A DNA stretch of 31,724 nt from a virus. Shown one piece after another: positions 348 to 31,091 of this stretch. The notes beneath the pieces were generated by a model. The model did not search any database. It was not told the origin of the DNA and saw only the letters and a list, made by a program, of their open reading frames with translations. The position numbers and the translations under genes were made by a program. Location: positions 1-31,724 of IMG/VR virus record IMGVR_UViG_3300044729_002795. One strand, given 5' to 3'. Within the stretch, counting starts at the first letter, position 1; each line of letters opens with the position of its first letter.

Positions 348-868
348 AACGTGATTCCTCCGCTTGATGGTAACGGCCCGACCTGGGCAGCGGTAAGTCT
401 ACGTGTTGGCGCGGTCCCTGCAACAAAATTGAGCGGGTTCGCCAGCCTGAGTGTCACGGGGGCGAACTTGTCCTCCTCGCCTGGCACCTCGTCAGCGTAC
501 CCAAACGAGTCGCAAACGCAGATCGTAGAGCTGAGCGTGCTAAGCTCGGTCCATGTCGGATAGCCCGTTTCATTTGCCGGCGGGGTGCCAGCGAGTAGGA
601 CGGTGAGAATCCTGATAAAGTACCGCCCCTCTGATGCCTGCCAGAGAGTTGCGGCAGAGATAGCATTCGCTGGGGCGATCAGCTCAAACTCTCCGCTGTC
701 ACTACCGCCGGTCGAAACATCGCCAGCGATGCTAAAGGGCGCAAACTGATAATTCGCACCGCCATAGCTTCTGGTTTCAGCCGGGAAGAAGGGCTGGAAA
801 AGCTGACGTGGGTTGAGCGCTGCGGCTGTTGCACTCAGGAACTCGATGTAGTGGGCGACAGTAAGCAT
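344..868 (-). CDS. Minor tail protein downstream of tape measure
   Basis: This 174-residue protein starts with ATG inside TAATG, overlapping the tape measure stop by one base. It contains the strand-rich stretch FSIAGDVSTGGSDSGEF followed by an alanine-rich helix and LRLANPLNF near the C-terminus. I recall the pattern 'D.STGG.D....L.....P.NA' from minor tail proteins located between the tape measure and an NlpC/P60-like protein, and that is its position here. No enzymatic motif is visible. A role in the distal tail or tail tip is inferred from synteny. Confidence 0.65.
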   Translation of the reverse strand: MLTVAHYIEFLSATAAALNPRQLFQPFFPAETRSYGGANYQFAPFSIAGDVSTGGSDSGEFELIAPANAISAATLWQASEGRYFIRILTVLLAGTPPANETGYPTWTELSTLSSTICVCDSFGYADEVPGEEDKFAPVTLRLANPLNFVAGTAPTRRLTAAQVGPLPSSGGITF

Positions 869-3800
869 TAGATTCCAGAGTAGTCGCGCACATCCTTGCT
901 GTTGCGCATCCCAGCATACGTCGAGTTTCTCGCCCTTTGCAACAGGGCGGCATTGCTCTTGCGAAACGTGGACTCCGTAACGTAGCGCTCGCCCCTTTCC
1001 TCTTTGACGGTGTAGCGCAGGTCGAGCACACCCTCGCTCGGCTCCCTCATGCCGCGCAGTTCGGCAGCCTTGTCAACCTTGCTCTGTGGTACCACGCTAC
1101 CAACCATCCCAGGGAAGAAAAATTCGGGGCCCTTCTCCCCGACCACGTACCCTTCCCCTGGCTTTGTGGTCCCGCCATTGGCGAAGAAGCCGCCGAAAGC
1201 AAAGCTCGGGGAGAAGCCTGGGATCAAGGCCGGCGCAGCGGCACCCAGGAGCGACGAGGCGAAGCTGCCGCCGCCGCCTCCGCCGCCACCGCCCACGACA
1301 CCCGAGAGCACCCCTGCTAGCTGGCGCTGAAGCAGGCTGGTGAGCTGCTGCTGTGCGGCGTCCGCGAAGCTCCCGGCGATGTTCCTGAGCATTTCGCGGC
1401 CAACGTCCTCGATCTTTTTCGTGCCGCTGACAATATCGACTAGCCCATTAGTAAGGGAGCCGGAGATCGCGTTCGATACATCGACAATGTTCTTTTCGAG
1501 ATTCTCCCAAACGAGCTTCTGGCTTTCGAGCAGGTTTGTCCTGTTGGCGAGGTCGGTTGCTTTTGAGGTATCGCCGTCGAAGTCGCGCATTCCCTGCTCA
1601 AACGCCCGCGCCCCTCCGCCGACGAAGCCAGCGCGAATACCGGCGCCGACGAGCGAAGTGTCACGTTGCAGCTCATTAATCTGTCTTCTGAACTCGTTTT
1701 GCTTGCGCAGCTCCTCTGTCTCGGCAACAAGGCCGCTTAGCTTCTGGCGCTGTGCTTCATCTGCCTGCTGATACAGCGTTGACGCCAAAAGTAGCTCGAC
1801 GTTGCTCGCCTTCAGTTCGCCGCGCTCCAGTGCAATTGCTTGCGCTTTTTCGACTGCGAGCGTCTCTTGCAGTTGCAAGACCTCTGAGCGAATGCGATCC
1901 TGATTCTGAAGCTGATTGTTCAGCTCGATGTTCTTGCGGCGCTGCTCCTCTTCCTTTTTGGCGATGTCAACTGCAAGGCCAGCTTGCTCATTGATCTGCT
2001 TCGTGGCAGCAACAAGCTCTTGCGGGTTGTATTGCGTCTTCGCTCTGGTGAGTGCATTGACGCGATCCTTCTCGATTTGCGTCAGCCTGGCGGCGGCCTC
2101 GGCCTGTCCGTCGGCTACGGCAGCGGCCTGATCGCTCAGGCCGATCGCCTGCTTCCTTGCCTCGATCTGCCGCTGCAGTGCATCGGCCTGCTGTTGCAGT
2201 TGCGGAAGTTGATTGTTTTGCAGAATCTGCTCGATCTGCCCAAGCTCGACACCTTTCTGCCTGAGCTTGATCTGATCTTCGAGGATGCGCTGAGCCTCCT
2301 TCTCCCCGCCCGCCAGGCTTGCACCGGCCGCCATGCGAGCCGCGTTCGAGGGCGCAGCGGAAGGCGTGGGGCCGATCGGGACGCCTCGGAATGTTGGCGC
2401 CGGGACGTTGCTGATCTGCGCGGCGGCGCTGGCTTGGGGGCCGGCCTTCCCAGCGGAGACTTTTAGGCTTTCAAGAATAAACTTAAGCGGCTCAAGAAGT
2501 TTCCCTGCCTGGTCGCGCAGTTCATAATGTAAATGAGTATTTGCCGCGTCTGGCGCAACAGTGGCGATACGCTGACCGGCCATAACGCGCTGGCCGGCGC
2601 CGACTCCGGGCAGGGTGTGACCATATACACCCTGCATCCCGTCGTCGTATTTAATGACAACCGCCCCACCGACGCGCCCGAAGCCGCTTGGGTAAGATTG
2701 AGTAATGATCCCGGCTCGACGCGCATGGATCGGATCTCCAACGTCGAGCCCGAGGTCCCTGCCGGCATGAAGGCGGCCTCGACCGTAGCCGACGCCTTCG
2801 TTTATGTTCGGCCCGCCTCTTGTGCCGGGGAGCATGTTTCCAATGCCACCCACCGAACCTTTGCCCATGGCCCCACCGCCAGTAGCGCCCGCCCCCGCAG
2901 GAGCGCTACCACCCGCGCCCATGTCGGGCAGTGTCGCCGCCTGCCGCATGTAGTCGGCAGACTCTCTGGAGCGTTGCAGAACATAGTCCGCAACTTGCAT
3001 CCTGTAGTCTTCTACCGACCTAGTGTAAGCGAGCTTGCGGCGCTCAATATCTTCGATCTCGCGTGCATTCGTGCGCTTGTAGTCTTCTGCGTCCCGCCCG
3101 AGCTTCACCAGCGTCAGTTCAAGCCGCCTGCGCGACTGCTCAATATCCGCTTCGCCCTCCTTCCTCGTCCGCATTACTTCGCGGACATTGCTTAACAGTT
3201 GCTGCTCGAAGCCAACTGCCGAAGAGAATGCGCCACGCGCACCGAGATCACCGCGCTCAATACGGTTCTGCGTCGCGCCGCGAGTATTCTCGATCTGCTT
3301 CTCAAGCGCTTGTTGCCTGAGGTCAAAGATTTCGCGCTCTTTTTTGTAGGAGTAGTCTGCGATTTCTCGATTGAGAGTCGCGCCATCGCGTTGCAAGTCA
3401 TGCGCCTGCCTCTGCAGCTTGAACGCTTCACGGTACGCGGACTTGATATCATCCGCCGCTTTGCGCGATTCATCGATTCGAGCGCCTGCATCCCTGAAGG
3501 CATCCTCAGCGGATGGCGCGGGCCGGCCAGAGGAAGAGGCAATGGCCTTGTCGATTCGTTTCTGAATCCCGGATCGCGGAACTTCCCCTATGTCAGTGAG
3601 CTTGCCGGTAAATGGATTGAATCTGTAGTTGCGGCGATTGTCTAAATCCTGCCCGCCGCCTCGGATGCTATTAATTAGGCTGACAATATCATTCAGTACA
3701 ATCGTGAAACCGATGATCCCAGGAATCACAAGTCGCTGTAGGTCGCCGGCAAGGATGGCCGAGGACTCTTGCAGTCTCTTTTGCTCAGTATTTAGCGCGT

Positions 3801-5718
3801 TAAGCTCCTTCGCCGCGCCAGGGCCGAGACGCTTTTCGGCCTCGCGCAAGACAAGCGTTTGCGCATCGTATGCACGGCCAACAGATTGCAGTTGCTGAAC
3901 CTGGAACTTGATGCTATCGCTGACATTGAATCCGCTTTTTTCAAGCGCCTGGATAGCATCGTTGGGCGCCTTAAGCGAAGAAGCAAGTTCCTTGAGATTG
4001 TTCGACGTGGTATCGATCGCGCTACCAACTGCGGTGCCGATCAGCGACAGGCCGAAGCCAAACGAGCCGCCGATTGAGCCGCCCGCAAGGCCGCCCGCAA
4101 GGCCGCCAGCCGAGGCGCCCAGCCCCTGCCCGAACAGGAGGGGGAACGAGCCGCCGATGAGACCCTCGGCGACCGCCTGCCGGGGGCTCCCTCGGAAGAA
4201 TCCTGGCTGCTGCTTAGGGCCTGGCGCAAGGTCTGGTCTGCGCTGTGCCAGTCGCTCGTCAAAAGAGAGTCCCCCGGTCCGCCGGAACTCTGCCGCCCGC
4301 CCCCTCGCACTGGCCTGATTTGCATTCTTCGCCTGAGCAAGAGCCTCTCTTCGTGTTTCGGCCTCGATCTTGTCCCGATTGCGACTGATGGACTTCAGTG
4401 TTGGCGAATCCTTCTCAACCTCCTCGGCTTGACGACTGAAGACATTGAAAACGGATGCTTCTGCGGCAGCCCTGGTGCGATCAGAGATCAGGTTGCGACG
4501 AGCAACGTCCTCATCGTTTACGCCGGCAGGGCGCAGGGTTAGCGCTGTGCTAACGCCGAAATCACGAGATAGCGCCCTGTCTCGTGCATAGGTATCGCCT
4601 GCCGCCTGCCGCTGAGCCCTGACAAGCTCGTTGGCGGCGGCTACCTCCGCCTGTCTCGCGCCAAGCCTTCTTTCTACCGCCGCCAGGTTCTCTTCTTCAA
4701 TAGCATTTAGCCTGCTTTGTGTCGAGACAAGATTCCGTAGCGCTACCTCCTCATCGTTTACGCCGGCAGGGCGCAGGGTTAGCGCTGTGCTAACGCCGAA
4801 ATCACGAGATAGCGCCCTGTCTCTATTGTATAGATCATTGGCCGCCTGTTGAGCACGCCTCCGTGCCGCTGCTTGCCTTTCTATGGCGGCAAGATTCTCC
4901 TCTTCGAGAAAGAGTTGCTTGCCCGTGAGAGCGTAGCTTGCTGTCTTGATGTTATTAATCTGATTATTTGCCTCTGCGCGATCCTGCTCAATCTTTAGCA
5001 GTTCCTTTTCGACGTTGCTTATCTCAACGGCTATAATGCCGCCGGACAAGCTACGTGTTTCCACAAGGTCGTAGACCCTAGAAAGCTCAGATCTGTACTC
5101 TGTGAGCGCCGCCTTTGTACGCGGCAAGTCTTTGCCGAGGCTAAGTAGCTGGTTCAGGCCGCCAACCCTTGGGTTAATATCTTGCCTAAACCCGCCGGTC
5201 CCGCTTTGGTATAAATCCTTTAGGGCGGTTAGCTGTTCGACGGTTGCCTTGCCAGCTCTTATATTCGCAATCTCCGCTCCCTGGGTAAAATCACGAAAAT
5301 ATCTTTTTTGAGATTTGTCTGCAAAATTGATATTGTCCGCCAGGGCCTTGAACGCGGCGGCCTGCTGGCGAAGTCCGGCAGTAGTGGACGCAAGGGACTT
5401 GCTACCAGAGGCTATGCTATTGAAAAAGTCTTTTGCGCTTTGACCCAGTGCGCGGAATGTATCTTGCTGGCGGCTGTCGATTCCAGCGACCCGAGCTGCT
5501 GCGTTGGTGGCAGGCCCCTTGAATATCTCCAGTGGCGTCTTGTTTAGCTCGCCAATCGTCCGCTGCAGCTTCGACAGGCTTTGCTGGGCCTGCTGGAAGC
5601 CAGAGGTTACCAGTACAGCTTCCAGTGGCTTATTAAGGCGCCGCTCAACAGTCTTTAAGCCTCTGTCGAAGTCAGAGAAGTCGCCTGTTACACGTACTCT
5701 GCCTTCGTAGTCAGCCAC
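868..5718 (-). CDS. Tape measure protein with internal M23 peptidase domain
   Basis: This 1616-residue protein is the longest in the window and lies directly after the chaperone pair, as tape measures do. The start is GTG at 5718 behind a strong GGGAGGGG ribosome site. Residues 1-500 are mostly helical and coiled coil. A Gly/Ala-rich hydrophobic segment lies near 520-570 and another near 660-690. Residues about 975-1080 form an M23 (LytM) metallopeptidase domain: HAGRD (His984), YGH, and HLHYEL (second His near 1064). More coiled coil and a polyglycine run follow. By the usual rule of about 0.15 nm per residue, the tail would be about 240 nm long. The peptidase probably opens host peptidoglycan during DNA entry. 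A 76-base exact direct repeat lies inside the gene. Confidence 0.95.
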   Translation of the reverse strand: MADYEGRVRVTGDFSDFDRGLKTVERRLNKPLEAVLVTSGFQQAQQSLSKLQRTIGELNKTPLEIFKGPATNAAARVAGIDSRQQDTFRALGQSAKDFFNSIASGSKSLASTTAGLRQQAAAFKALADNINFADKSQKRYFRDFTQGAEIANIRAGKATVEQLTALKDLYQSGTGGFRQDINPRVGGLNQLLSLGKDLPRTKAALTEYRSELSRVYDLVETRSLSGGIIAVEISNVEKELLKIEQDRAEANNQINNIKTASYALTGKQLFLEEENLAAIERQAAARRRAQQAANDLYNRDRALSRDFGVSTALTLRPAGVNDEEVALRNLVSTQSRLNAIEEENLAAVERRLGARQAEVAAANELVRAQRQAAGDTYARDRALSRDFGVSTALTLRPAGVNDEDVARRNLISDRTRAAAEASVFNVFSRQAEEVEKDSPTLKSISRNRDKIEAETRREALAQAKNANQASARGRAAEFRRTGGLSFDERLAQRRPDLAPGPKQQPGFFRGSPRQAVAEGLIGGSFPLLFGQGLGASAGGLAGGLAGGSIGGSFGFGLSLIGTAVGSAIDTTSNNLKELASSLKAPNDAIQALEKSGFNVSDSIKFQVQQLQSVGRAYDAQTLVLREAEKRLGPGAAKELNALNTEQKRLQESSAILAGDLQRLVIPGIIGFTIVLNDIVSLINSIRGGGQDLDNRRNYRFNPFTGKLTDIGEVPRSGIQKRIDKAIASSSGRPAPSAEDAFRDAGARIDESRKAADDIKSAYREAFKLQRQAHDLQRDGATLNREIADYSYKKEREIFDLRQQALEKQIENTRGATQNRIERGDLGARGAFSSAVGFEQQLLSNVREVMRTRKEGEADIEQSRRRLELTLVKLGRDAEDYKRTNAREIEDIERRKLAYTRSVEDYRMQVADYVLQRSRESADYMRQAATLPDMGAGGSAPAGAGATGGGAMGKGSVGGIGNMLPGTRGGPNINEGVGYGRGRLHAGRDLGLDVGDPIHARRAGIITQSYPSGFGRVGGAVVIKYDDGMQGVYGHTLPGVGAGQRVMAGQRIATVAPDAANTHLHYELRDQAGKLLEPLKFILESLKVSAGKAGPQASAAAQISNVPAPTFRGVPIGPTPSAAPSNAARMAAGASLAGGEKEAQRILEDQIKLRQKGVELGQIEQILQNNQLPQLQQQADALQRQIEARKQAIGLSDQAAAVADGQAEAAARLTQIEKDRVNALTRAKTQYNPQELVAATKQINEQAGLAVDIAKKEEEQRRKNIELNNQLQNQDRIRSEVLQLQETLAVEKAQAIALERGELKASNVELLLASTLYQQADEAQRQKLSGLVAETEELRKQNEFRRQINELQRDTSLVGAGIRAGFVGGGARAFEQGMRDFDGDTSKATDLANRTNLLESQKLVWENLEKNIVDVSNAISGSLTNGLVDIVSGTKKIEDVGREMLRNIAGSFADAAQQQLTSLLQRQLAGVLSGVVGGGGGGGGGSFASSLLGAAAPALIPGFSPSFAFGGFFANGGTTKPGEGYVVGEKGPEFFFPGMVGSVVPQSKVDKAAELRGMREPSEGVLDLRYTVKEERGERYVTESTFRKSNAALLQRARNSTYAGMRNSKDVRDYSGI
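4508..4583. repeat. 76-bp exact direct repeat, copy 1, inside tape measure gene
   Basis: These bases are identical to 4748-4823. The period is 240 bases, so the repeat is in frame and encodes the same peptide (RALSRDFGVSTALTLRPAGV, then ND) twice, 80 residues apart. The flanks of the two copies have diverged while the core has not. This suggests a recent duplication or ongoing gene conversion within the coiled-coil part. Confidence 0.95.
4748..4823. repeat. 76-bp exact direct repeat, copy 2, inside tape measure gene
   Basis: This is the second copy of the repeat at 4508-4583. Recombination between the two copies would remove exactly 80 residues from the tape measure and, in principle, shorten the tail. 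Confidence 0.95.
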
Positions 5719-9344: not shown

Positions 9345-9557
9345 TCAGACCCCGATGACGCGCCAGGAACCGCCACGCCACCAGACCAGGGCCGACGCGG
9401 AGCCACCGCCTACGGGCGCGGAGCCGGCGGCGGGGGACGTGGCATCAGTGACCACCCGCAGGGCGAACAGGGCGTCCATTTCGGTCAACTGGGCCGCCGT
9501 GGGCAGGGTGGCGACGGTGAGGCCGCTTTTGAAATTGAGGTTTTGGAAGGAGGCCAT
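9345..9557 (-). CDS. Small structural protein (possible decoration or connector)
   Basis: This 70-residue protein starts MASFQNLNFKSGL and ends WWRGGSWRVIGV, with an Ala/Ser/Gly-rich linker before the C-terminal strand. It lies just after the terminator that follows the capsid gene and is the first gene of the connector operon. Its size and position would fit a decoration or head-fibre base protein. I do not recognise the family. Confidence 0.5.
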   Translation of the reverse strand: MASFQNLNFKSGLTVATLPTAAQLTEMDALFALRVVTDATSPAAGSAPVGGGSASALVWWRGGSWRVIGV

Positions 9558-9603
9558 CTGACACAGGAGGCTCGGGCCCCCATCCTACCCCGGCCGCGCC
9601 ACG

Positions 9604-9627
9604 AAAAAAGGGGGCCGAAGCCCCCTT
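9604..9627 (-). terminator. Intrinsic terminator after major capsid gene
   Basis: The minus strand has GGGGGC, TTCG loop, GCCCCC, then TTTTTT. It lies 24 bases after the capsid stop. It is nearly the twin of the terminator at 6340-6363, with the same loop. Confidence 0.92.
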
Positions 9628-9650
9628 GATCACTCCTCCCCGGAAGCCTA

Positions 9651-10703
9651 TCAGATCGTTCCGCCAAAGGGCGAGTTGACGATCAGTCGCACTGCCGGAA
9701 TCAGGCGAGATTCGGTGTACGCCAAGCTCCAGTTCGAGCCGGTAGCGAGTTGCGCGTTCGTCGGGTTGTCCTGGGTGGAGTTCCAGGAAGTGCCGGGAAC
9801 GTGCTGAACCTGGTGGTAGTCCACAATCATGCCGTCCTGCTTGGACGGAGCGTTGCGGGTCGGCTCGACTTCCATGGGGATCTGATCTCCCTCGCGCATC
9901 ACGCCAAGACCGCAGATATAGCAGACAAACTGCCGCTGCTGGCCACTGGTGCCGATAATAGGGAGTTGGTCGTCAACGATCACATTGAGGTTGTAAGCGT
10001 TGCCGATTAGCAGCCTGGTGTTTACGCCTCGGCGATCGGCGTCGTAGGTGAGGAAGCCGAGCTGCTCCAGATAGGCGGAACAGGCAGAGGGAATCACAAG
10101 GGTCGTGAGTTCCGACTGTCGCTCGCCCAATCTGTAACGGGCCTCGATCACGTTCTCCACCGTCAGCCAGTTGGAGATAGTCGAGCCGGTCGTGACGGAC
10201 TTGTTGAGACTGTGGACGGTGTTCAAGGGGCCGCCGGTGCCAAGCAGGCCCTCCATGTGAGAGATAAACTTCGTAGTGCGGAGTTTATCGATGGCGGGAG
10301 CCATTTGCTCGCCGAGCACCTTCATCGGGTCTTCGCCGATCGCCAGCTTCGTCAGCTTGTCGATCGCAAACGCAAAGCCTCGGTGAGTGATGGTCGCGTA
10401 CTGCGTGCCAGCGGTGACCTTCTGGAACGTGAAGTGCCCCTCGCCGGACATGCCCCAGTTGTTACCCGAGGTCATCCGCTCCTCTACCGGGTTGAGCGGC
10501 TTGAAGAAGGGTGCCTCGATCCGGGTGCCGGTCGTGGACGAGAGCAGGGTATCCTCTCGGGCGACAATACCGGACTTAATCATTCGAGACTGCAGGAAGA
10601 TTTCTTCTTGCAGGTATTGGGCAAACTCGCCAGACGTTGCAAGCCGCGTGAGACTTGCAACGTCGCCGGCAAAAGTACCGCCCAAGTTGCCAAGGTAGGC
10701 CAC
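9651..10703 (-). CDS. Major capsid protein
   Basis: This 350-residue protein follows a scaffold-like gene and is ended by a strong terminator, as expected for the main coat subunit. Its sequence fits phage coat proteins: an N-terminal helical part (FAQYLQEEIFLQSRMIKSG), TRIEAPFFKPL, a long central helix-strand region with ENVIEARYRLGERQSELTTL, and LLIGNAYNLNVIVDDQLP near the C-terminal third. The start is GTG (10703) without a clear Shine-Dalgarno sequence. I cannot place it in a specific coat family. Confidence 0.82.
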   Translation of the reverse strand: MAYLGNLGGTFAGDVASLTRLATSGEFAQYLQEEIFLQSRMIKSGIVAREDTLLSSTTGTRIEAPFFKPLNPVEERMTSGNNWGMSGEGHFTFQKVTAGTQYATITHRGFAFAIDKLTKLAIGEDPMKVLGEQMAPAIDKLRTTKFISHMEGLLGTGGPLNTVHSLNKSVTTGSTISNWLTVENVIEARYRLGERQSELTTLVIPSACSAYLEQLGFLTYDADRRGVNTRLLIGNAYNLNVIVDDQLPIIGTSGQQRQFVCYICGLGVMREGDQIPMEVEPTRNAPSKQDGMIVDYHQVQHVPGTSWNSTQDNPTNAQLATGSNWSLAYTESRLIPAVRLIVNSPFGGTI

Positions 10704-10782
10704 TGGAAGGAAAGCAAAGGGTCGTGAATTGGCTTACACGGCCGCGCAGCAGCGGTGCTTTCGCTCGGGGCCTAGCGCAGCC

Positions 10783-11478
10783 TCACCCCTTGCCTTGCGC
10801 GGAGAGCGTCGCTTCCGCTTCGGCCATGAGCTTATCAGCAAGCTCAGGATTGTCAACTTTCAGCCTGATGCGCTCAGTAATGTTGCCCGTGAGCCATGGA
10901 TTGCTGCCCGTGGAGGCACTGCCGGCAGCGGCGGCCCCAGGGGTGCTCTTTGCGCCCATGCCACCAGATCCGCCGGCAGGCTTGGCGTGGTAGGCCCACT
11001 CGGGATCCTGGCGGATCTTGGCCATCAGTTCGCTCGCGGGGACCTCGATGCCCTTGAACTTCACGACGAGAACGTCATCGCGCAACTGAGCGCCTTCCCC
11101 GAAAAGCGTCCATAGCTGCTTGGGCGCTTGGGCTTCTGCTCCTACGGCGGCAAGGAAGTCGGCCCTAGCCTTATCACGCTGACTTTTGGTCGTGATCTCC
11201 GTGATCTGAGTGTCTTTGGCCTTGAGTTGCTCGTGTAGCGCTTTAATCTGATCGCGTGCTTCGTTGAGCAACTCTTGCAGTTGCCCTTGTTCTTCCATCT
11301 CTTTTTGCTTGCGAGCTGCTTCAGCCGCTTCCATTTCGCTGATGCGGCTCTGAAGTTTCTTCTTCTCGTCCAAAACTTCCCCTTTCTTGCCATCCAGGGC
11401 ATTCAGGCGCTGTTCAAGCTCGTCAACCCTGGCGGCCTTGGCTTGCAGGTCGGCAATTTGTTCGGGAGTGAGCGACAT
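10783..11478 (-). CDS. Scaffold-like protein
   Basis: This 231-residue protein starts at ATG 11478 (MSLTPEQIADL). Residues 1-110 are a long charged coiled coil (ELEQRLNALDGKKGEVLDEK and following). A compact segment QLWTLFGEGAQLRDDVLVVK, a Gly/Ala/Ser-rich linker and a helical C-terminus follow. Position between portal and capsid genes plus an extended coiled coil indicates a capsid assembly scaffold. The start lies next to a palindromic divergent promoter at 11496-11512. Confidence 0.72.
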   Translation of the reverse strand: MSLTPEQIADLQAKAARVDELEQRLNALDGKKGEVLDEKKKLQSRISEMEAAEAARKQKEMEEQGQLQELLNEARDQIKALHEQLKAKDTQITEITTKSQRDKARADFLAAVGAEAQAPKQLWTLFGEGAQLRDDVLVVKFKGIEVPASELMAKIRQDPEWAYHAKPAGGSGGMGAKSTPGAAAAGSASTGSNPWLTGNITERIRLKVDNPELADKLMAEAEATLSAQGKG

Positions 11479-11892: not shown

Positions 11893-11925
11893 GCCCCTCG
11901 GTCAAGCGACTGGGGGGCTTTCGTT
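11893..11925 (+). terminator. Intrinsic terminator of the plus-strand coiled-coil gene
   Basis: An 11-pair stem with two G-T wobbles (GCCCCTCGGTC, loop AAGC, GACTGGGGGGC) is followed by TTTCGTTT. It starts 13 bases after the stop of the plus-strand gene and overlaps the 3' end of the portal gene on the other strand. Confidence 0.75.
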
Positions 11926-13353
11926 TGCTTGCTGCTTTCGCATCGCCTCGCGTTTGGCCTGCTCCTTGAGCGCCTTGACCTGCGCAACCAGCGTGGGGAT
12001 GTCCATTTCTTCCGGGAGCCACTCGCCGCGAGCGAGAATCTTCATAAAGGCCTCTATCGGGAGCTGCCCCTTCTCCTCAAGATCGGACAGCACGCTTACG
12101 TCCTGACCGAGCAGGCGATAGAAGTCAAAGTCACGATCAATGACAACTTTTGGGGCTTCCTTGCCATTGTAGTCAGAGGCCATGCGAAAAGCCTCGTTAA
12201 GGGCATTCTCAAGCTCTTGCGCCGTTACCGCAAGTACGCAGTTGGCCTGCTGTTGATCGATTCGCTTTGCATCAGCAGATTCAGCGACAAACTTTTGCCC
12301 AAGCAGCTTTGTGACGCCAAGGTGCGAGATTTCGTTTTCGATGCGATCAAGCATTTCCGCTTGCGCAGCAAACGAACCCGCATCACAAGGCACCCAGTAC
12401 GCTTTTGTGCCCGTATTCATTCTGATGCCATAGTTGACGCCAGTACCCGCTTCTCCGCCATCGTAGTCTTCAAGCACAAGCAATCCAATCGCCGCGATAT
12501 GCAGCGAGTGCAGCATGTCAGCAAGCCGGCGGTAGTGAGCGATGTTCAGGTGCGCGACATCAGCAAGCGGCGGAGTTGCACATCTGAACCCTTCGCGTTG
12601 CGCGTAAATGTCAACTACGGGAATGTAGTCAAGATCGAACAGGCCAGTGTCAACAGCGAGCTTCTTATCTCCCTCGAATAGCTCGTAAGCGCCAGGAATG
12701 ATAACACGAGCGGCAGGAGTGTACTCCTCACCGTATTCGCCGTCAGCAACTCTTCGCTCTTCTTCGTACCGCAGCATCGTCAACTTGGCGCCAGGGTTGT
12801 CATCCTCGCGTCGATGCCCGAGGTACTGCCAGGGATCGACAGGCACGAAATAAGGTTTCAGTGGTGACAGCTCATCAGCACCGCTAGTCGCTTGACGCCT
12901 TTCCGCGTCAACGATAAGAGTTGACATGCCATAAGCAAGCGCAGCCTCAAGCCTGCCAAGTGCAAACTGATCGAGCGACGTGCCATCGCCGTCCACATCC
13001 TTCCTGAACTCCTCCTCCCACCACGGATCACCACCTTCGAGCTTGATTCTGCGCCGTAGCACCATGCCCGCAGCGTTATGGATCAAGCGCTTTACGAATG
13101 GGGCGAGAACGCTTAGGTTGACGCGCTTTTGCCAGGGATCGTATTCTTTGCCGTCGGCGGTTTGCGTTTTCGCCTCTCGCGGCTCTCTCGGCAGGTAGAC
13201 TTCCGCGTTGTTATGCAGATACTCCGTGCCACTCGTGACAGCACGAATAATCTCCCATTTTTGGCGCATCCGAATAACAGTCGTATCCATGAAGAATGGA
13301 GACGCCTTATCATTGTAGTTTCGAGGCGTTAGCCTTACTCGGATGCTGCTCAT
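11902..13353 (-). CDS. Portal protein (DUF4055-like)
   Basis: This 483-residue protein lies at the head of the structural genes and diverges from the large terminase. The N-terminal half includes WEIIRAVTSGTEYLHNNAEV and the repeat-like LPREPREAKTQTADGKEYDPW. Later come VKRLIHNAAGMVLRRRIKLE, SLDQFALGRLEAALAYGMST, and a C-terminal helical ALKEQAKREAMRKQQ. The pattern of short helices, a 'YG...LIVDAERR' strand and a size near 480 residues matches DUF4055-type portal proteins. The portal ring would be the DNA entry point and terminase docking site. ATG 13353 has no clear Shine-Dalgarno sequence. Confidence 0.8.
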   Translation of the reverse strand: MSSIRVRLTPRNYNDKASPFFMDTTVIRMRQKWEIIRAVTSGTEYLHNNAEVYLPREPREAKTQTADGKEYDPWQKRVNLSVLAPFVKRLIHNAAGMVLRRRIKLEGGDPWWEEEFRKDVDGDGTSLDQFALGRLEAALAYGMSTLIVDAERRQATSGADELSPLKPYFVPVDPWQYLGHRREDDNPGAKLTMLRYEEERRVADGEYGEEYTPAARVIIPGAYELFEGDKKLAVDTGLFDLDYIPVVDIYAQREGFRCATPPLADVAHLNIAHYRRLADMLHSLHIAAIGLLVLEDYDGGEAGTGVNYGIRMNTGTKAYWVPCDAGSFAAQAEMLDRIENEISHLGVTKLLGQKFVAESADAKRIDQQQANCVLAVTAQELENALNEAFRMASDYNGKEAPKVVIDRDFDFYRLLGQDVSVLSDLEEKGQLPIEAFMKILARGEWLPEEMDIPTLVAQVKALKEQAKREAMRKQQANESPPVA

Positions 13354-13432: not shown

Positions 13433-14767
13433 ATGCCAGTCCAGACTGAATTACGCCGGAGCGGCGACATTGTTGCCGGCAGGAATCAGCTATCGCTGAG
13501 GCCGGCCCAGGGCATGATCTTCAACGATCGCAGGCGCTTCCGGGTGGTCCTGGCAGGCCGGCGTGGCGGAAAGACGGTGCTCGGGGGCGTCGAGCTGCTT
13601 CGAGGGGCCGCTGAGGTGCCTGGGGTCTACTACTACGTCGCCCCTACCTATCGCATGGCGAAAGACATCGCCTGGGATACATACAAGAAGATCATCCCCG
13701 AGCGCTGGATTCGGAAGAAAAACGAGTCGAACCTGAGAATTGACCTGATCAACGGCAGCAGCATATACCTCAAGGGGTCGGAAGACCCCGACGCACTACG
13801 CGGCCCCGCGTTGAACGGAGTCGTGCTCGATGAGTGCGCCTTCCAGGAAGAGTACACCTGGCGTTCTGTCATTCGGCCGGCGTTGTCGGACAGGGGTGGC
13901 TGGGCGCTATTTACTACTACTCCATCGCCAGAGGGTACTGCGGGATGGTTTTATGAAATGATCTTACTGCTCAAGAATGCCGACCTCGCCGACCCAGGCC
14001 TTGAGCGCCTCGATCCGCAGCAATGGACGCTGTACGAGTACACGTCATTGCAAGGCGGCAACATCCCATTGCACGAAATCGAAGAAGCTCGCAAAACACT
14101 CGCTAAGGACGTGTTCGAGCGCGAGTACGAAGCTAAGATTTTGTCGAATACAGGACTTGTTGTCTCCTGTTTTTCAATGCTCAACGTTGATTCGACTGTC
14201 GAAGACGATCCCGAGCTACCGCTTTACGTCGGAATCGACTTCAACAACGACCCGCTGACCGCAATTTGCGCAAACATCGTCAGGGAAAGGGGAAAACCCA
14301 AAGAATTGCGCGTTTTCGCGGAAATGAACCTCAAAGGAGCGACGACATGGGATCTTGCTGAGCAACTTATCGACGTTTATGGCCTGAAGCGGCGTATTAT
14401 CGCCTGCCCAGACCCCACGGGTAAGCGTAAACAGACATCCGGCGTCGGGGTGAGTGACTTGCAGATCCTGCGCAAGGCTGGAATCGAGGTTTACGCCCCC
14501 GAGTCACCCTATACCACTGCCGACAAGATTCGCACCGTAAACGCAGCACTGCGCACAGCCGACGGGGAAGTACATACGAAGATTCACTCAAGCTGCCGAG
14601 AGCTTATTAAGTCATTCAGGACGCTTGGATATGCCGAGGGTACGCGGATGCCAAACAAGAAACTAGGCGTCGACCATGCTTTCGACGCCTTCGGGTATCT
14701 CGTGCTTGGCAAGTTCAACCTGACAAAGGGCCTGAACGGCTCTCGAACCGAGCACATTATCTACTAA
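13433..14767 (+). CDS. terL: Terminase large subunit (ATPase/nuclease)
   Basis: This 444-residue packaging motor has the expected domains. The ATPase has Walker A AGRRGGKT (41-48), NGSSIYLKG (107-115), Walker B GVVLDE (129-134), and the coupling motif TTTP (161-164). The RNase H-like nuclease has acidic residues in YVGIDF (Asp269), ACPDPTG (Asp327) and GVDHAFDAFGY (Asp414). The N-terminal LSLRPAQGMIF resembles the conserved start of this family, so I keep ATG 13433 rather than the internal Met28. It is on the strand opposite to portal and small terminase, which is unusual. Its stop overlaps the stop of the convergent zinc-ribbon gene. Confidence 0.95.
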   Translation: MPVQTELRRSGDIVAGRNQLSLRPAQGMIFNDRRRFRVVLAGRRGGKTVLGGVELLRGAAEVPGVYYYVAPTYRMAKDIAWDTYKKIIPERWIRKKNESNLRIDLINGSSIYLKGSEDPDALRGPALNGVVLDECAFQEEYTWRSVIRPALSDRGGWALFTTTPSPEGTAGWFYEMILLLKNADLADPGLERLDPQQWTLYEYTSLQGGNIPLHEIEEARKTLAKDVFEREYEAKILSNTGLVVSCFSMLNVDSTVEDDPELPLYVGIDFNNDPLTAICANIVRERGKPKELRVFAEMNLKGATTWDLAEQLIDVYGLKRRIIACPDPTGKRKQTSGVGVSDLQILRKAGIEVYAPESPYTTADKIRTVNAALRTADGEVHTKIHSSCRELIKSFRTLGYAEGTRMPNKKLGVDHAFDAFGYLVLGKFNLTKGLNGSRTEHIIY

Positions 14768-15860: not shown

Positions 15861-16577
15861 ATGAACAACCAACTCTTCGGCCTTCACAGCACTCCGTCGG
15901 GCGCTCTCCTTTCGCAGGGCGCTCTCCTTTCGCAGGGCGCTCTCCTTTCGCAGGGCGCTCTCCTTTCGCAGGGCGCTCTCCTTTCGCAGCAAGAAATCCT
16001 CAGCGATCCCAAGCGCTTTTGCCTTGTTGCGGCCGGCCGGCGGTGGGGCAAAACGACTTTCGGTGTTCGTAAACTTTACGATTCTGCAATGAGTGGCGGG
16101 ACCGCAACCTACTTTCATATCTCTCCTTCTGTTATGATGGCAGAGCTGGCGTACAAGTGCTCCATGGAGCTTTCGCCCGGATGGAGGCATATCGAGAGCA
16201 GCCGTACTGTTCACGCTCCCAACGGCTCCCGCGTTGTCTTTATGAGTCAACAAGAGGCGTTTAATGTCGATCGCTGGAGAGGGCATAGCGTCTCGGGTGT
16301 TGTAGTGGACGAGCCCTGGATGTGTACTAATCGCCTTATTGGGCCTGTCTGTTTTCATATAATGCCTTCTCGTGCATGGCTTTTACTGGCTGGGACGCCA
16401 CCATGGAATCACCGTAAATGGCTTAGGCGCCCTCGCCTTGCTGCTAGACTTGCGGCTATTCGCTTAGGTTTTGACCCCTCGGATGTTGCCGTCTATTTTT
16501 GTTTCAATGAAAGCGGCGTTGATCATGCCTTGGACGCTTTCAGGTATGCCACAACTTTAAGCGCTTACGGTAGTTGA
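15861..16577 (+). pseudogene. Internally deleted terminase-like ATPase with hexapeptide repeats
   Basis: This 238-residue frame carries Walker A AGRRWGKT (58-65), NGSRVVFMS (121-129), Walker B VVVDE (147-151) and LAGTPPW (176-182). It then jumps to VDHALDAFRYA (220-230), which aligns with GVDHAFDAFGY at the end of terL. About 200 residues, including most of the nuclease, are missing. The N-terminus has five copies of GALLSQ from a tandem 18-base repeat. The frame is open throughout and has its own promoter, so it may be a decayed copy or a retained ATPase-only derivative. Its sequence differs strongly from the window's own terL, so it is more likely acquired than duplicated in place. Confidence 0.7.
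15901..15990. repeat. 18-bp tandem repeat, five units
   Basis: The unit GCGCTCTCCTTTCGCAGG occurs five times without interruption; only the last base of the last unit differs. It is in frame in the terminase-like gene and encodes GALLSQ. Unit number can change without breaking the frame. There are no spacers, so it is not a CRISPR array. Confidence 0.97.
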
Positions 16578-17093: not shown

Positions 17094-17111
17094 GCTTAAC
17101 AGTTTATAAGG
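17094..17111 (-). promoter_or_regulatory. Regulon element 1 (TGTTAAGC box only)
   Basis: The plus strand reads GCTTAACAGTTTATAAGG, one base different from the copies at 21152 and 21964. A companion palindrome box is not clear. A TATAGG-like -10 lies downstream on the minus strand, but no good minus-strand gene follows. Transcription from here would run antisense to the small plus-strand genes. The element lies just after the end of the 17116-17367 gene. Confidence 0.45.
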
Positions 17112-21105: not shown

Positions 21106-21169
21106 ACAATAGCACGAAAAAGGGGCAAGCGTGGCACGCTCACCCCTGAAGGCTTAACAGTTTGTAAGG
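21106..21169 (-). promoter_or_regulatory. Regulon element 5
   Basis: On the plus strand, GCTTAACAGTTTGTAAGG (21152-21169) lies 11 bases from the perfect palindrome AGCGTGGCACGCT (21128-21140). Sixteen bases further is the complement of TATTGT (21106-21111), read as TGCTATTGT. It drives the 209-residue gene. Both boxes are identical to those at 21940-21981. Confidence 0.75.
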
Positions 21170-21591
21170 TAGCTTCTCTCACAGGTGGCCATGGTAGCGA
21201 GGCCGGGCACTCGCAGCCTGAGAGTATCGCTACCCGTCCATGCCTCCCTGGCTTTGCCTTGGCAAGTCTTGTACCATTGGTATTTGACCTGAGATAGAAA
21301 GTAAGGCAGGTGAGTAAATACAATCATTATGGCATGAAGCCTGCTAGCCGTAGTTCTCGTTTGCCAGCCACAATCGCTGATCCATACCGTCTGCTCTGCC
21401 GGCCTGATTGCGGCAATCTCGCTACCGTGAAGCCTGACGCTGATGATACGCTGATAGCCGATCGTGTGAGCGATGCCATGATGAGACTGTTCAACAGTGG
21501 TATTTCCTGACTTGAAATAGACGCCATCATAGTCAGCCTTGCCAATAAGATCATTAATGGCACTGATCATCTGCTCTTCGATTTTACGCAT
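21154..21591 (-). CDS. Conserved phage protein (145 aa)
   Basis: The N-terminal hundred residues follow a family I recognise in many phages: MRKIEEQMISAINDL, then YFKSGNTTVE, VRLHGSEIAAI and ISDCGWQTRTTASRLHAIM. The usual family ends about there. The remaining 45 residues (YQWYKTCQGKAREAW onwards) look unrelated and end inside regulon element 5, whose TTAA supplies the stop codon. The tail may be a readthrough extension gained when the promoter was inserted. The function is unknown. Confidence 0.65.
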   Translation of the reverse strand: MRKIEEQMISAINDLIGKADYDGVYFKSGNTTVEQSHHGIAHTIGYQRIISVRLHGSEIAAIRPAEQTVWISDCGWQTRTTASRLHAIMIVFTHLPYFLSQVKYQWYKTCQGKAREAWTGSDTLRLRVPGLATMATCERSYLTNC

Positions 21592-22659: not shown

Positions 22660-23916
22660 TTACGGCGTCCCGTCAAGTACGATCAGCTTGCCATCCACAC
22701 CAAAGAATGCCGTTATTCCAAGGAATTGAGGGCTAGTAACATTTTGGCGCCTGAGATACTCTAGCGCATACTTCTCCCCAATCCGCAACCCGCTCGTCAT
22801 ATCGCGCTGATAATGAATGCCGTCGAATCCGCGACCCACAGTCATGTGCCACATCATAAGATCGATCTCTTCGTGTAGATGCTCGATCCCAAGTGATGGT
22901 ACGGGGCCATTAGCGAACCAGGCTTTAAGTATGGTTCCCCATACGCCGGCATCGACAGCGTGACCGCTAGGGTCGGCACTATGAAGTGGGCATCCTGCGG
23001 CCAGGGGCGTCGGCAAGTAGTGCCCGATCTGATCAACAATCCATCCCGCCAGTCTCAGGAAAGCCTCGTTCAGCTCTCCCCGGCAGGCCTGAGGCCACAG
23101 CTCCTCAGGGCGCGGCCGGCGAAAAACAGTATATTTCAGGTGCCAGGCATGCTCTCCTGCTGCGAGCATGACCTGTCCCATGGCCCCAGCCATTTCCCAT
23201 ATCCCACCAGGGCCAACAAAGGCGTCTTCGTTTTTAGCGACAGGGAAACGTGTGGACCTAGGGGCATTGGCTGCCACCAGGATCTCCATAACGCATCGCC
23301 CGATGAATCCGGGTGAATCCTGATGCGCGAAACTCCCAATATCCCTTAGGGTGACAGGGATTGCAGCTCCCGCCGCTAGTCGCTGCGGTTCAGGAATCCG
23401 CCCACTCTGCAGGGCTTCCCATGCTGCATAATTGCCCCCGTATTCACCGATGCGTGTGCGAGTGGCGAACGAGAATGGCTCACCCCAACCCGTCGGGATC
23501 TTGGCGTAAATCAGTTTTCCGATTCGATCAGCACCGACCCTCGCCGGATTCATGCGGAATAGGCCATTTGGTCCGTCAGCCATGAGTAGTCGATTGTTCT
23601 TGCCGAAGTCGGCAAGCATCCGTGCCCCGCGCATGGCAATGGGGTGCTCATTGATGCCCGCAAGCGGCACGTCCCGAAGCAAGACGATCAGCCCGAGCAG
23701 GGCCAGTTCAGCCGCAGTCCGCACACTTTCATTAGATGGCGTTCCGGGGACTGGTGGGGTATCGGTATTGCCGTACCCTGCTTGTGGTGACACGATGCGG
23801 CGCGGGCCTGGCAGGCTCATCGCATTCATTTTGTCATGCCGGAGAGTACGATTAGGTTCTGCTAAGGCATCGGCTAAGGCATCGGCAGAATGCCCTTTGG
23901 TGAAAAAGGTTGACAT
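22660..23916 (-). CDS. Vanadium-dependent haloperoxidase
   Basis: This 418-residue protein of the PAP2/haloperoxidase superfamily oxidises halides with hydrogen peroxide. All vanadate-site elements are visible: HLKYTVFRRPRPEE (Lys261, Arg269), PSGHA (Ser317, Gly318, His319), and GRGFDGIHYQRD (Arg362, His368). SFAHQDSPGFIGRC earlier in the chain is typical of bacterial family members. I chose ATG 23916 (MSTFFTKGHSADAL), since the longer frame to 23982 would cross the promoter. There is no signal peptide, so it is probably cytoplasmic in the infected cell or carried in virions. It has its own regulon promoter (element 7) and a coupled membrane peptide gene. Halide preference cannot be read from sequence. 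Confidence 0.92.
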   Translation of the reverse strand: MSTFFTKGHSADALADALAEPNRTLRHDKMNAMSLPGPRRIVSPQAGYGNTDTPPVPGTPSNESVRTAAELALLGLIVLLRDVPLAGINEHPIAMRGARMLADFGKNNRLLMADGPNGLFRMNPARVGADRIGKLIYAKIPTGWGEPFSFATRTRIGEYGGNYAAWEALQSGRIPEPQRLAAGAAIPVTLRDIGSFAHQDSPGFIGRCVMEILVAANAPRSTRFPVAKNEDAFVGPGGIWEMAGAMGQVMLAAGEHAWHLKYTVFRRPRPEELWPQACRGELNEAFLRLAGWIVDQIGHYLPTPLAAGCPLHSADPSGHAVDAGVWGTILKAWFANGPVPSLGIEHLHEEIDLMMWHMTVGRGFDGIHYQRDMTSGLRIGEKYALEYLRRQNVTSPQFLGITAFFGVDGKLIVLDGTP

Positions 23917-23940: not shown

Positions 23941-24002
23941 ACAATAGCACTGATCCCGTAGCGTGCAACGCTCAGACCCCAAGGGCTTAACATTTAATCA
24001 CA
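23941..24002 (-). promoter_or_regulatory. Regulon element 7 (haloperoxidase promoter)
   Basis: On the plus strand, GCTTAACATTTAATCACA (23985-24002) lies 12 bases from AGCGTGCAACGCT (23960-23972), followed by the complement of TGCTATTGT (23941-23949). Read on the minus strand it gives GTTGCA, 17 bases, TATTGT: a well-spaced -35/-10 pair. The start codon is about 24 bases after the -10 box. Confidence 0.8.
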
Positions 24003-24261
24003 AAGCAGACTTTCGCATGAACTCCTCAAACGTCAGCGAGCGAGCTGGTTTCGCCTCCTCTGCCGGCACCCAGCACCATTTGCCACCATCAAACCAGCCG
24101 ACGCGATCATCGACGCGATCTGCGGGCTGTGCTGTGCGAGCGGTGCGTTTTCGCCACCATCCGCGATCAGCATAGAAAATCTGCCCGATCGGAATGTTCT
24201 TGAAACGCTGTCGTCTCGATCCCAAATCGGCGGGTCGGGTGCTGGGGTCAATCAGTTGCAT
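23998..24261 (-). CDS. Hypothetical protein (87 aa)
   Basis: I chose ATG 24261 (MQLIDPSTRPADLGSR), which overlaps the HNH-like gene by 14 bases. The product has a 'F..ip.Gq.FyaDRGWWRK' strand region and WFDGGKWCWVPAEE, a compact aromatic-rich fold, then a helix SLTFEEFMRKSAL. I recall similar 'f..ip.G..F......w.K' small proteins in phages, with unknown function. It is the last gene of the long operon and its end overlaps the haloperoxidase promoter. Confidence 0.6.
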   Translation of the reverse strand: MQLIDPSTRPADLGSRRQRFKNIPIGQIFYADRGWWRKRTARTAQPADRVDDRVGWFDGGKWCWVPAEEAKPARSLTFEEFMRKSAL

Positions 24262-28714: not shown

Positions 28715-29227
28715 TTAACCTCGGCTTTGTTGTACTGTGGTGTCGCCGTTATAGCGACCTGTCTGTGCGTAGCTACGGAGTGGCGGTGCCGCCATGAACT
28801 GGAACACCATCTGCCCTATCCGTTTGCCAGGCCAGAGCGGAAAGGGGTGTAGCTGACTTACGTTGTGCAACTCCATCGTGAGCACACTCCCGTTCCAGCC
28901 TGGGTCGCAGAACCCCGCAGTAAGGTGATTTAATTTCTCCCGTGCTCGGGATGACTTCAGTACGAACTGCGCGGCTATATGGTCCGGCAAGTTAAAGCCC
29001 TCCATCGTGGGGGCCAGTGCAAATTGCGCTGGCGTCATCAGGTAGGGGTTCTCTTCGCTGTGCCGGTAAAGCGGATAAGGGATAAGTTCAGGGCTTTCCA
29101 TTGACTCGATCAACAGGGAGCTGCCAAGCCTTACGTCAAGGCTTGCGGGATTGACAAGCGAGGGATCGTATGGTGTTACCATACCCTCCTCGCAGTACGC
29201 TCGGATCAGGAAATCGGGGAGAATCAT
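28715..29227 (-). CDS. dcd: dCTP deaminase (dUTPase superfamily)
   Basis: This 170-residue enzyme converts dCTP to dUTP, feeding thymidylate synthesis. Visible family signatures are NPASLDVRLG (26-35), FVLKSSRAREKLNHLTAG (88-105), FCDPGWNGSVLTMELHN (106-122, with catalytic Glu119), RIGQMVFQ (136-143) and the C-terminal SYAQTGRYNGDTT-type nucleotide-closing tail. A bifunctional dCTP deaminase/dUTPase cannot be excluded. It is the first gene of the ten-gene operon behind regulon element 8. The ATG at 29227 lies 39 bases after the -10 box. Confidence 0.9.
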   Translation of the reverse strand: MILPDFLIRAYCEEGMVTPYDPSLVNPASLDVRLGSSLLIESMESPELIPYPLYRHSEENPYLMTPAQFALAPTMEGFNLPDHIAAQFVLKSSRAREKLNHLTAGFCDPGWNGSVLTMELHNVSQLHPFPLWPGKRIGQMVFQFMAAPPLRSYAQTGRYNGDTTVQQSRG

Positions 29228-29328: not shown

Positions 29329-30729
29329 CTAGCGAGCCATGGCAGCGTTGCAGTAGCCCATCGGCAGGCCTAGGGTGCGCTCGATCTCGCGCTTTTGTTG
29401 ATCGCTCAGCCCCTCCGGGTTGCTTGCAAGCGGCCACAGGATCATTGGGTTGTAGTTTTTTTCCCTCACAAGGAAAAGATTCTTGTTGGCGGCCCTGAAC
29501 CTTTGCCTCAGTCGTTGCTCGTAAATGTCTTCAATAGGCAGTTCCTTGAGATCGCGCTTGTTCCCTTTGGCGACAAATGCACCGGCAGGCCTGGGGGGAG
29601 CTTCGACAATGTTGTTGCTGGCGTCAACCATGAGATTCCCTGGCTGAAACTTGACCTTCCCTTCTAGTGTCCAGTCAATCGGCTCGTGAGGCAATGGCAG
29701 GTGCTCCCAGCAGTTGCCGTGATCGATGATAAGCGCTATCTTGTCGGGATTGTTTTTGTCAGTGCGCAATACTCTGCCGATCAACTGCTTCCAGAGCCGT
29801 AGTGATTTCGTGGGGCGAATGAGCTGTAAGCATGTCGCTGCTGGCAGATCGAGACCTTCATCGATCAGCGCTACGGAAACAATGACTTGCAATTTACCAG
29901 CCGTGAACCGCGCAAACGCACTATCGCGCTCCCTTTCTGGCGTGTCACCGATGACAACTTCTGCGCTGATACCAGCCGCCCTATACTCCTCGGCCAGCAT
30001 GTGCGCGTGATCGATGCTAATTGTTACAGAGATTGTCGGCTTAAGCTCAGGGTTGAAGCGCATTAGATCGCGCACGAAATCGCCATCAACCTCGATAATC
30101 CGCTCCTCTATTTGCTTTGCATCGTAGTCTCCTCCCTTCGTTCCCACGCCTTTCGTATCAACAATCGCCTCACCCGCAAACATGCGATACCAGCACAGCG
30201 AGCCATCGTCCATGAGCTGCTTCGGTTGCGGCCCGAGAATGAGCTTCGTGATGCCGAACTTGCCCAGGCCGGCGCCCGTGGGGGTGACGGGAGTTGCAGT
30301 TGCGCCGGCAAAGAACGATGGCTGTATCTCCTTGATGATCTCCTGGTAACTCTTTGCCTGTATATGATGAGCTTCGTCTAGCAGCACTACCCAGTCCTTA
30401 AACGAGGGGAGAACAGCGCGACGGCGTGAAAGTGTAGGGATCATGCTGACCATGATCCCACGAAACTCGGTAGTACGCTTTGCGCTGTAAAACCCAATCG
30501 GTTCGTTACAGTGCTTTTGGCAACTGTCTGCTATCTGCTTGATGATCTCGTTTCGATGTGCCGCGAGCAGCACGTTATAGCCCCATTCACGAAAGCGGCG
30601 TGCAATCTCTGCCATCATCACAGTTTTACCACTGCCTGTGGGGCTCACCAGGCAAGGTGCGCCCCCTTTTAGCATGTGCTCTACTGTAAGATCACAGAGG
30701 TTATGTTGATACTCGCGGAGATCGAACAT
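29329..30729 (-). CDS. SF2 DNA helicase (DEAH type)
   Basis: I chose ATG 30729 (MFDLREYQHNLC), which forms TAATG with the upstream stop. The 466-residue product has the superfamily 2 motifs in order: Q-motif-like REYQ, motif I SPTGSGKT (29-36), motif II DEAH (118-121), motif III GATATP (142-147), motif V region SVALIDEGLDLPA (285-297) and motif VI QLIGRVLR (316-323). It resembles UvsW/RadD-type phage helicases that remodel recombination and replication intermediates. It sits near a RusA resolvase gene, in keeping with DNA branch processing. Confidence 0.92.
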   Translation of the reverse strand: MFDLREYQHNLCDLTVEHMLKGGAPCLVSPTGSGKTVMMAEIARRFREWGYNVLLAAHRNEIIKQIADSCQKHCNEPIGFYSAKRTTEFRGIMVSMIPTLSRRRAVLPSFKDWVVLLDEAHHIQAKSYQEIIKEIQPSFFAGATATPVTPTGAGLGKFGITKLILGPQPKQLMDDGSLCWYRMFAGEAIVDTKGVGTKGGDYDAKQIEERIIEVDGDFVRDLMRFNPELKPTISVTISIDHAHMLAEEYRAAGISAEVVIGDTPERERDSAFARFTAGKLQVIVSVALIDEGLDLPAATCLQLIRPTKSLRLWKQLIGRVLRTDKNNPDKIALIIDHGNCWEHLPLPHEPIDWTLEGKVKFQPGNLMVDASNNIVEAPPRPAGAFVAKGNKRDLKELPIEDIYEQRLRQRFRAANKNLFLVREKNYNPMILWPLASNPEGLSDQQKREIERTLGLPMGYCNAAMAR

Positions 30730-31091
30730 TAGCCCTTGATGACCTGTGCGACCCAGGTGCATTCTTTGTCCGCCATTTCCGCTTTGCCGGCCTTGAGATA
30801 CTTGGCTTGCAGTTTTGCGAACTCAGACTTGTACTCTTCCGAGTGGTCTTCGCCTACCTTAAAATAGGTACCTGTCGCCCGCCGGCCGAGACGGATCTTC
30901 TGGATACTGCCATCGCTGAATTGACAGCTAGTATCTGACTTTGCGGCTAGCTCGTTTGCCTTGAACAGTTCCTCGCACTGTTGCTTGATTTGTTTCTTCT
31001 CCTGTTCGAGGATTTTCTCTTGTTGCGTCAGGTACAGCAAGCGTGCTGCGAGCTGTCCTGCATCGACTGGTTGCTGGGCGGGGGATTGCAT
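30729..31091 (-). CDS. Hypothetical coiled-coil protein (120 aa)
   Basis: The product begins MQSPAQQPVDAGQLAARLLY, then a coiled coil LTQQEKILEQEKKQIKQQCE. The second half has FSDGSIQKIRLGRRATGTYF and a helical, Lys/Glu-rich segment. It is coupled to the helicase gene by TAATG and may be its partner, for example a small DNA-binding accessory factor. The family is not recognised. A promoter with TGCTACAAT lies 27 bases upstream. Confidence 0.6.
   Translation of the reverse strand: MQSPAQQPVDAGQLAARLLYLTQQEKILEQEKKQIKQQCEELFKANELAAKSDTSCQFSDGSIQKIRLGRRATGTYFKVGEDHSEEYKSEFAKLQAKYLKAGKAEMADKECTWVAQVIKG

Follow-up and report, generated by a model that had tools for sequence, protein, structure and literature searches.

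A phage-borne gene for a putative vanadium-dependent haloperoxidase with a conserved active site in a probable cyanophage

Results

A haloperoxidase-like gene in the accessory region of a phage genome

The window (the whole stretch of viral DNA analysed, 31,724 nucleotides) contains a haloperoxidase-like gene that opens with an ATG at 23916 and closes with a TAA stop at 22660-22662. The first-pass annotation had placed the gene in this interval without naming a strand; the reading frame is real, lies on the minus strand, and its ATG start is backed by N-terminal alignment to related phage proteins. Tape measure, head, scaffold, portal and terminase genes are found on one side of it and a helicase gene on the other (Table 1), the haloperoxidase gene itself sitting in an accessory region outside the structural block. 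A sibling contig (IMGVR_UViG_3300042321_002425, here L002; 49,964 bp) is collinear with the window and holds a 95% identical haloperoxidase copy in the same context. Its 127-bp direct terminal repeats indicate an apparently complete genome. Hallmark genes on both sides and the like arrangement in the terminally repeated sibling bear out the earlier proposal that the gene is of phage origin and not host flanking DNA. In sum, the gene is intact, under selection (see below), flanked by phage genes and carried by genuine phage genomes. A chimeric contig is ruled out by the sibling together with about eight further phage contigs.

Table 1 Features of the window
Feature	Position	Strand	Remarks
Tape measure protein	868..5718		embedded metallo-endopeptidase/endolysin-like domain, residues about 970-1080
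Major head protein	9651..10703	-	nearest named isolate cyanophage S-2L
Portal protein	11902..13353	-	nearest isolates cyanophages S-2L, S-H1, KBS-S-2A
Terminase large subunit	13433..14767	+	phage context
Short ORF after terminase gene	15864..16577		weak Terminase_6N similarity
18-bp tandem repeat	15899..16007		GGGCGCTCTCCTTTCGCA x5, within the Terminase_6N-like ORF
Kyano_Gp96 family gene	21157..21591	-	cyanophage-only, host indicator; PF23790 E 6e-17
Vanadium-dependent haloperoxidase gene (putative)	22660..23916	-	418 aa; K261, R269, S317-G318-H319, R362, H368, H312, W258, D200
Upstream cis element	23945..24006	-	TTTGTGATTAAATGTTAAGC-N12-AGCGTTGCACGCT; one copy of a family repeated before phage genes
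dCTP deaminase-like gene	28715..29227	-	60-65% identical in other haloperoxidase-bearing phages; upstream-element copy before the gene
DNA helicase	29329..30762	-	phage context, other side of haloperoxidase gene

The nearest named isolates of the portal and head proteins are cyanophages (S-2L, S-H1, KBS-S-2A and MED4 phages), and the Kyano_Gp96 gene matches 275 phage records, all but one (uncultured) bearing Synechococcus, Prochlorococcus or cyanophage names. These marker genes make a picocyanobacterium very probably the host, in good agreement with the phototroph assumed at the outset. Elsewhere in the window, the short ORF following the terminase gene has a counterpart at about the same place in the sibling, a split terminase-like ORF with the Walker A motif GRRRGKTT; the window ORF is possibly a decayed second terminase.

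A repeated upstream element precedes the gene

The element upstream of the haloperoxidase gene follows a pattern, TGTTAAGC and then, after 12-14 bases, AGCGTGCCA or a variant of it, that precedes several minus-strand genes in both the window and the sibling. Copies in the window lie at 17099, 18272, 18719, 18988, 21157, 21969, 23990 and 29316, all on the minus strand, and their likeness is directly visible in the aligned strings. Scored with a matrix trained on five copies, the haloperoxidase site excluded, the site at 23990 reached 27.5 bits compared with a best of 22.3 bits in 12 shuffled windows, a slightly loose test because the spacing was set wrongly in anchoring one of the training copies. 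In the sibling, the element is conserved upstream of a 198-residue ORF of unknown function (L002:2236-2832), which lies between the element and the haloperoxidase gene and is absent from the window. A sigma-70 promoter scan upstream of the haloperoxidase gene returned no site, the element having come from repeat analysis. Of the phage-type promoter proposed earlier, the shared upstream element therefore stands and a sigma-70 consensus match does not. The element is probably a phage promoter or regulatory site, and its family is a candidate for a picocyanobacterial-phage promoter that includes an activator site. As the element is shared with other phage genes, the haloperoxidase gene appears to be wired into the phage's own programme.

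The active site is unvarying and the protein is under selection

All five vanadate-site elements listed in the first-pass annotation (Lys261, Arg269, Ser317-Gly318-His319, Arg362 and His368) are found at the expected positions of the translated ORF. In the alignment they pair with the Lys, the second Arg of RRxRP, the SGH and the R-x5-H of the Corallina bromoperoxidase, and so superpose on its vanadate site, the point on which the assignment had been said to turn. K261, R269, G318-H319, R362 and H368 are unvarying in a 49-row family alignment and in every phage copy examined, with S317 being Ser or Ala across the family. H312, W258, H198 and D200 are also unvarying in the 49 rows; on wider sampling one phage copy has a changed H198, none departs from the catalytic K, R, GH, R and H, and H312 and W258 are kept in all phage copies. 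H312 corresponds to the second His of the bromoperoxidase active site, which precedes the SGH His by seven residues (H in FHPSYGSGH). Comparison of the window and sibling haloperoxidases yielded a dN of 0.025, a dS of 0.146 and a dN/dS of 0.17, indicating that the protein is under selection. This ratio and the unvarying catalytic residues rule out a degenerate or purely structural relic. A signal peptide-like N-terminus is absent from the protein.

The position three residues before the catalytic Lys (Lys-3) is occupied by Trp258. Trp is found there in the chlorinating Ascophyllum and Curvularia enzymes and Arg in bromide-specific enzymes, the Corallina and Acaryochloris enzymes having Arg; replacement of R397 by Trp or Phe raised chlorination by the C. 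pilulifera enzyme, and R425W barely altered chlorination by that of Acaryochloris (PMC11871015). The window protein thus resembles Ascophyllum at this position and differs from Corallina and Acaryochloris. Trp is present in 83 of the 85 bacterial family members among the matches listed. Being common to most of the bacterial family, W258 is a weak sign of chloride use and loses force as a special chloride mark; chloride use by the window enzyme is possible.

Profile and fold place the protein with bromoperoxidases

In a phmmer search of the PDB with the window protein alone, algal vanadium bromoperoxidases rank first (E 1.2e-11); this match and the dN/dS given above place the finding well outside what chance would produce. 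A family profile of 48 relatives, the window protein contained among them, matches the Corallina (E 4e-131), Acaryochloris (1.6e-126) and Ascophyllum (5e-111) enzymes over their full length and gives weak matches to fungal chloroperoxidase and bacterial iodoperoxidase. The AlphaFold2 model (pLDDT 87, pTM 0.90), computed from an input alignment without two plasmid rows, has the large all-alpha haloperoxidase fold and matches the Ascophyllum bromoperoxidase 1QI9 with E 6e-19 and TM 0.81 (Foldseek, TMq). Haloperoxidases as a group score TMq 0.7-0.8 against the model and PAP2 phosphatases about 0.2-0.3, the latter as partial matches, and the model does not show a compact phosphatase fold lacking the large haloperoxidase bundle. 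A PAP2 phosphatase as nearest kin is supported neither by fold nor by profile, and no flavin-dependent halogenase (VirX1-type) fold was matched in the Pfam or structure searches. Active-site geometry was judged from the alignment and the fold match. The profile search and structure prediction that had been proposed as checks thus both agree with a vanadium haloperoxidase, an assignment to which sequence, profile, fold and tree all lend support.

The sole Pfam match of the protein is to the generic PAP2 model PF01569, at 15.1 bits below the cut-off of 27.2 bits, and NCBIfam and PHROGs return no match; routine annotation would consequently overlook the gene and call it hypothetical.

The algal bromoperoxidases of Ascophyllum nodosum (1QI9/5AA6) and Corallina (1QHB/1UP8) and the Acaryochloris marina enzyme (5LPC) share with the window protein the fold, the vanadate-site residues, the Lys-x7-Arg spacing and the bromoperoxidase His. 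However, the window protein is phage-encoded, about 20% identical to them, and shorter, by about 140-180 residues in the case of the algal enzymes. Bacterial relatives (from cyanobacteria, Acidobacteriota, Verrucomicrobiota, Streptomyces and others) show full-length homology and a similar active site, with 25-29% identity among the matches listed, but every phage copy falls outside the sampled cellular clade.

Putative phage haloperoxidases fall in clades apart from the sampled cellular enzymes

Profile scans of viral contigs identified about eight further phage relatives with 31-59% identity to the window protein (L143 59%, L144 45%, L089 39%, L148 38%, L090-L092 37%, L147 35%, L093 31%). Most of these phages have dCTP deaminase-like, helicase, terminase, portal and RusA genes in common with the window. 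In quick trees with SH-aLRT support, the window-type phage copies group together (SH-aLRT 100) and none of the sampled enzymes from bacteria, algae or the host family falls among them; the proposed comparison with cyanobacterial and algal enzymes thus points to a separate phage lineage. A second viral clade (L094-L100, L102-L105 and L107) and a third pair (L101 and L106, in very long, putative phage contigs) likewise stand apart from cellular enzymes among the matches listed. The cellular sample consists of the matches listed, ordered by similarity to the window, which leaves the second and third groups less securely separated from the cellular enzymes than the first.

In the contigs checked, the second-clade haloperoxidase gene lies within the virion gene block. 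In L097, terminase, portal and major head genes lie upstream of it (9869-11401) and virion genes downstream, and in L104 (5949-7526) and L105/L107 (9305-10903) it follows closely on head or portal genes. For the second-clade enzyme, a role late in infection or in the virion is the favoured reading. In the first-clade contig L092, an RTX-like ORF (9360-9947; GGNAGDNIINGGQGQDRLTGGRGADTF) lies directly upstream of the haloperoxidase gene, which suggests a secreted-type partner. A Rhizobium phaseoli plasmid encodes a divergent relative of the haloperoxidases (L004:5716-6843), next to genes for an AbiGi-type antitoxin and a Shedu nuclease.

Among other viruses, 'PAP2 superfamily' proteins of Hokovirus (A0A1V0SGK0), Sylvanvirus (A0A3G5AI90) and Yasminevirus (A0A5K0U6L7) have a similar predicted fold (BFVD, TM about 0.8); they belong to giant viruses of eukaryotes, are 20-22% identical to the window protein and are not named haloperoxidases, and may be misnamed members of this class. 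VirX1 and related cyanophage flavin-dependent halogenases (PMC8407142, PMC10452541) resemble the window protein as cyanophage-encoded halide chemistry but are unrelated flavoenzymes that use reduced flavin and O2 in place of vanadate and peroxide. The flavin halogenase gene was present in 20 of 153 surveyed cyanophages, in a report that mentions neither haloperoxidase nor vanadium (PMC10452541). Five query sequences gave no haloperoxidase match in 50,697 GenBank phage records, and a literature search that covered few subscription papers found no paper linking haloperoxidase to phage genomes. Within the collections searched, the earlier remark that there is no well-described phage example holds, giant viruses having same-fold 'PAP2' proteins, and the window lineage appears to be an old phage-only haloperoxidase branch for which we found no earlier description.

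Discussion

Haloperoxidases, known from algae, fungi and bacteria, drive a large share of the natural production of halocarbons and hypohalous acids. For the window protein, vanadium haloperoxidase chemistry is the preferred interpretation, and one that we hold with considerable confidence, bearing in mind that apo-haloperoxidases can act as phosphatases, which counts against a firm haloperoxidase reading from sequence. The Lys-to-Arg spacing of 8, the alignment of His312 with bromoperoxidases, the full-length profile match and the fold match to 1QI9 point to the bromoperoxidase type. We infer that during infection the phage, siphovirus-like and picocyanobacterial, would produce a catalytically competent enzyme of this type. 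The vanadate would be attached to His368 and kept in place by Lys261, Arg269, Ser317/Gly318 and Arg362; peroxide would then bind, and bromide, iodide or chloride would be oxidised to hypohalous acid, which would react with nearby organics or a second peroxide. Given the missing signal peptide, the enzyme should work within the infected cell until lysis sets it free. Its likeliest benefit would be peroxide removal combined with hypohalous-acid chemistry where the host's photosystems steadily generate peroxide, the simplest role in a phototroph; no peroxide-source or substrate gene is linked to the haloperoxidase gene. Taken as a whole, with the peroxide role included, this account has about an even chance, or slightly less, of being right.

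A somewhat unlikely alternative is that a true haloperoxidase is used offensively or on surfaces. Hypohalous acid produced late or at lysis would harm competing phages or cells, quench signals, or modify cell-surface or virion molecules, and the enzyme may ride in the virion of related phages. The placement of the second-clade gene in the virion block (L097) or near head or portal genes (L104, L105 and L107) and the RTX-like ORF in L092 fit such a use. In contrast, the window gene has a control element of its own and belongs to the accessory region, its product lacks a signal peptide-like N-terminus, and halide would be low if the waters are fresh. A broader and more speculative proposal, which we regard as rather improbable, is that several phage lineages (picocyanobacterial siphoviruses and, separately, virion-block phages) carry haloperoxidases as a regular component, the enzyme being made late or borne on particles and using host peroxide to generate hypohalous acid at lysis or entry; infection would then itself release halogenated compounds into the water.

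Still less probable is a PAP2-type phosphatase, whose substrates might be lipid or isoprenoid phosphates or which might serve in phosphate salvage. The Lys-Arg-GH-Arg-His site also serves PAP2 phosphatases, and the single Pfam match, at 15 bits, is to PAP2; however, fold, length and profile are bromoperoxidase-like, PAP2 phosphatases match the model only in part (TM about 0.3), and the bromoperoxidase His H312 and W258 are kept throughout the phage copies. Phages take up host genes, and few genomes of the host-type family (about nine of 300) have a full haloperoxidase, but misassembled host DNA or a recently captured, decaying host gene is scarcely credible, as the host-family enzymes show only 24-29% identity to the window protein where they align locally and branch in another part of the tree, the dN/dS is low, and the terminally repeated sibling and other phages with terminase and portal homologues carry the gene; recent host capture is ruled out by the tree and this identity.

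The bromoperoxidase-type reading is directly testable, since a small protein with no apparent signal peptide should make expression and assay straightforward. During infection, viruses of abundant phototrophs may direct the chemistry of peroxide and halogens, as suggested by an old phage-only lineage whose active site has not changed.
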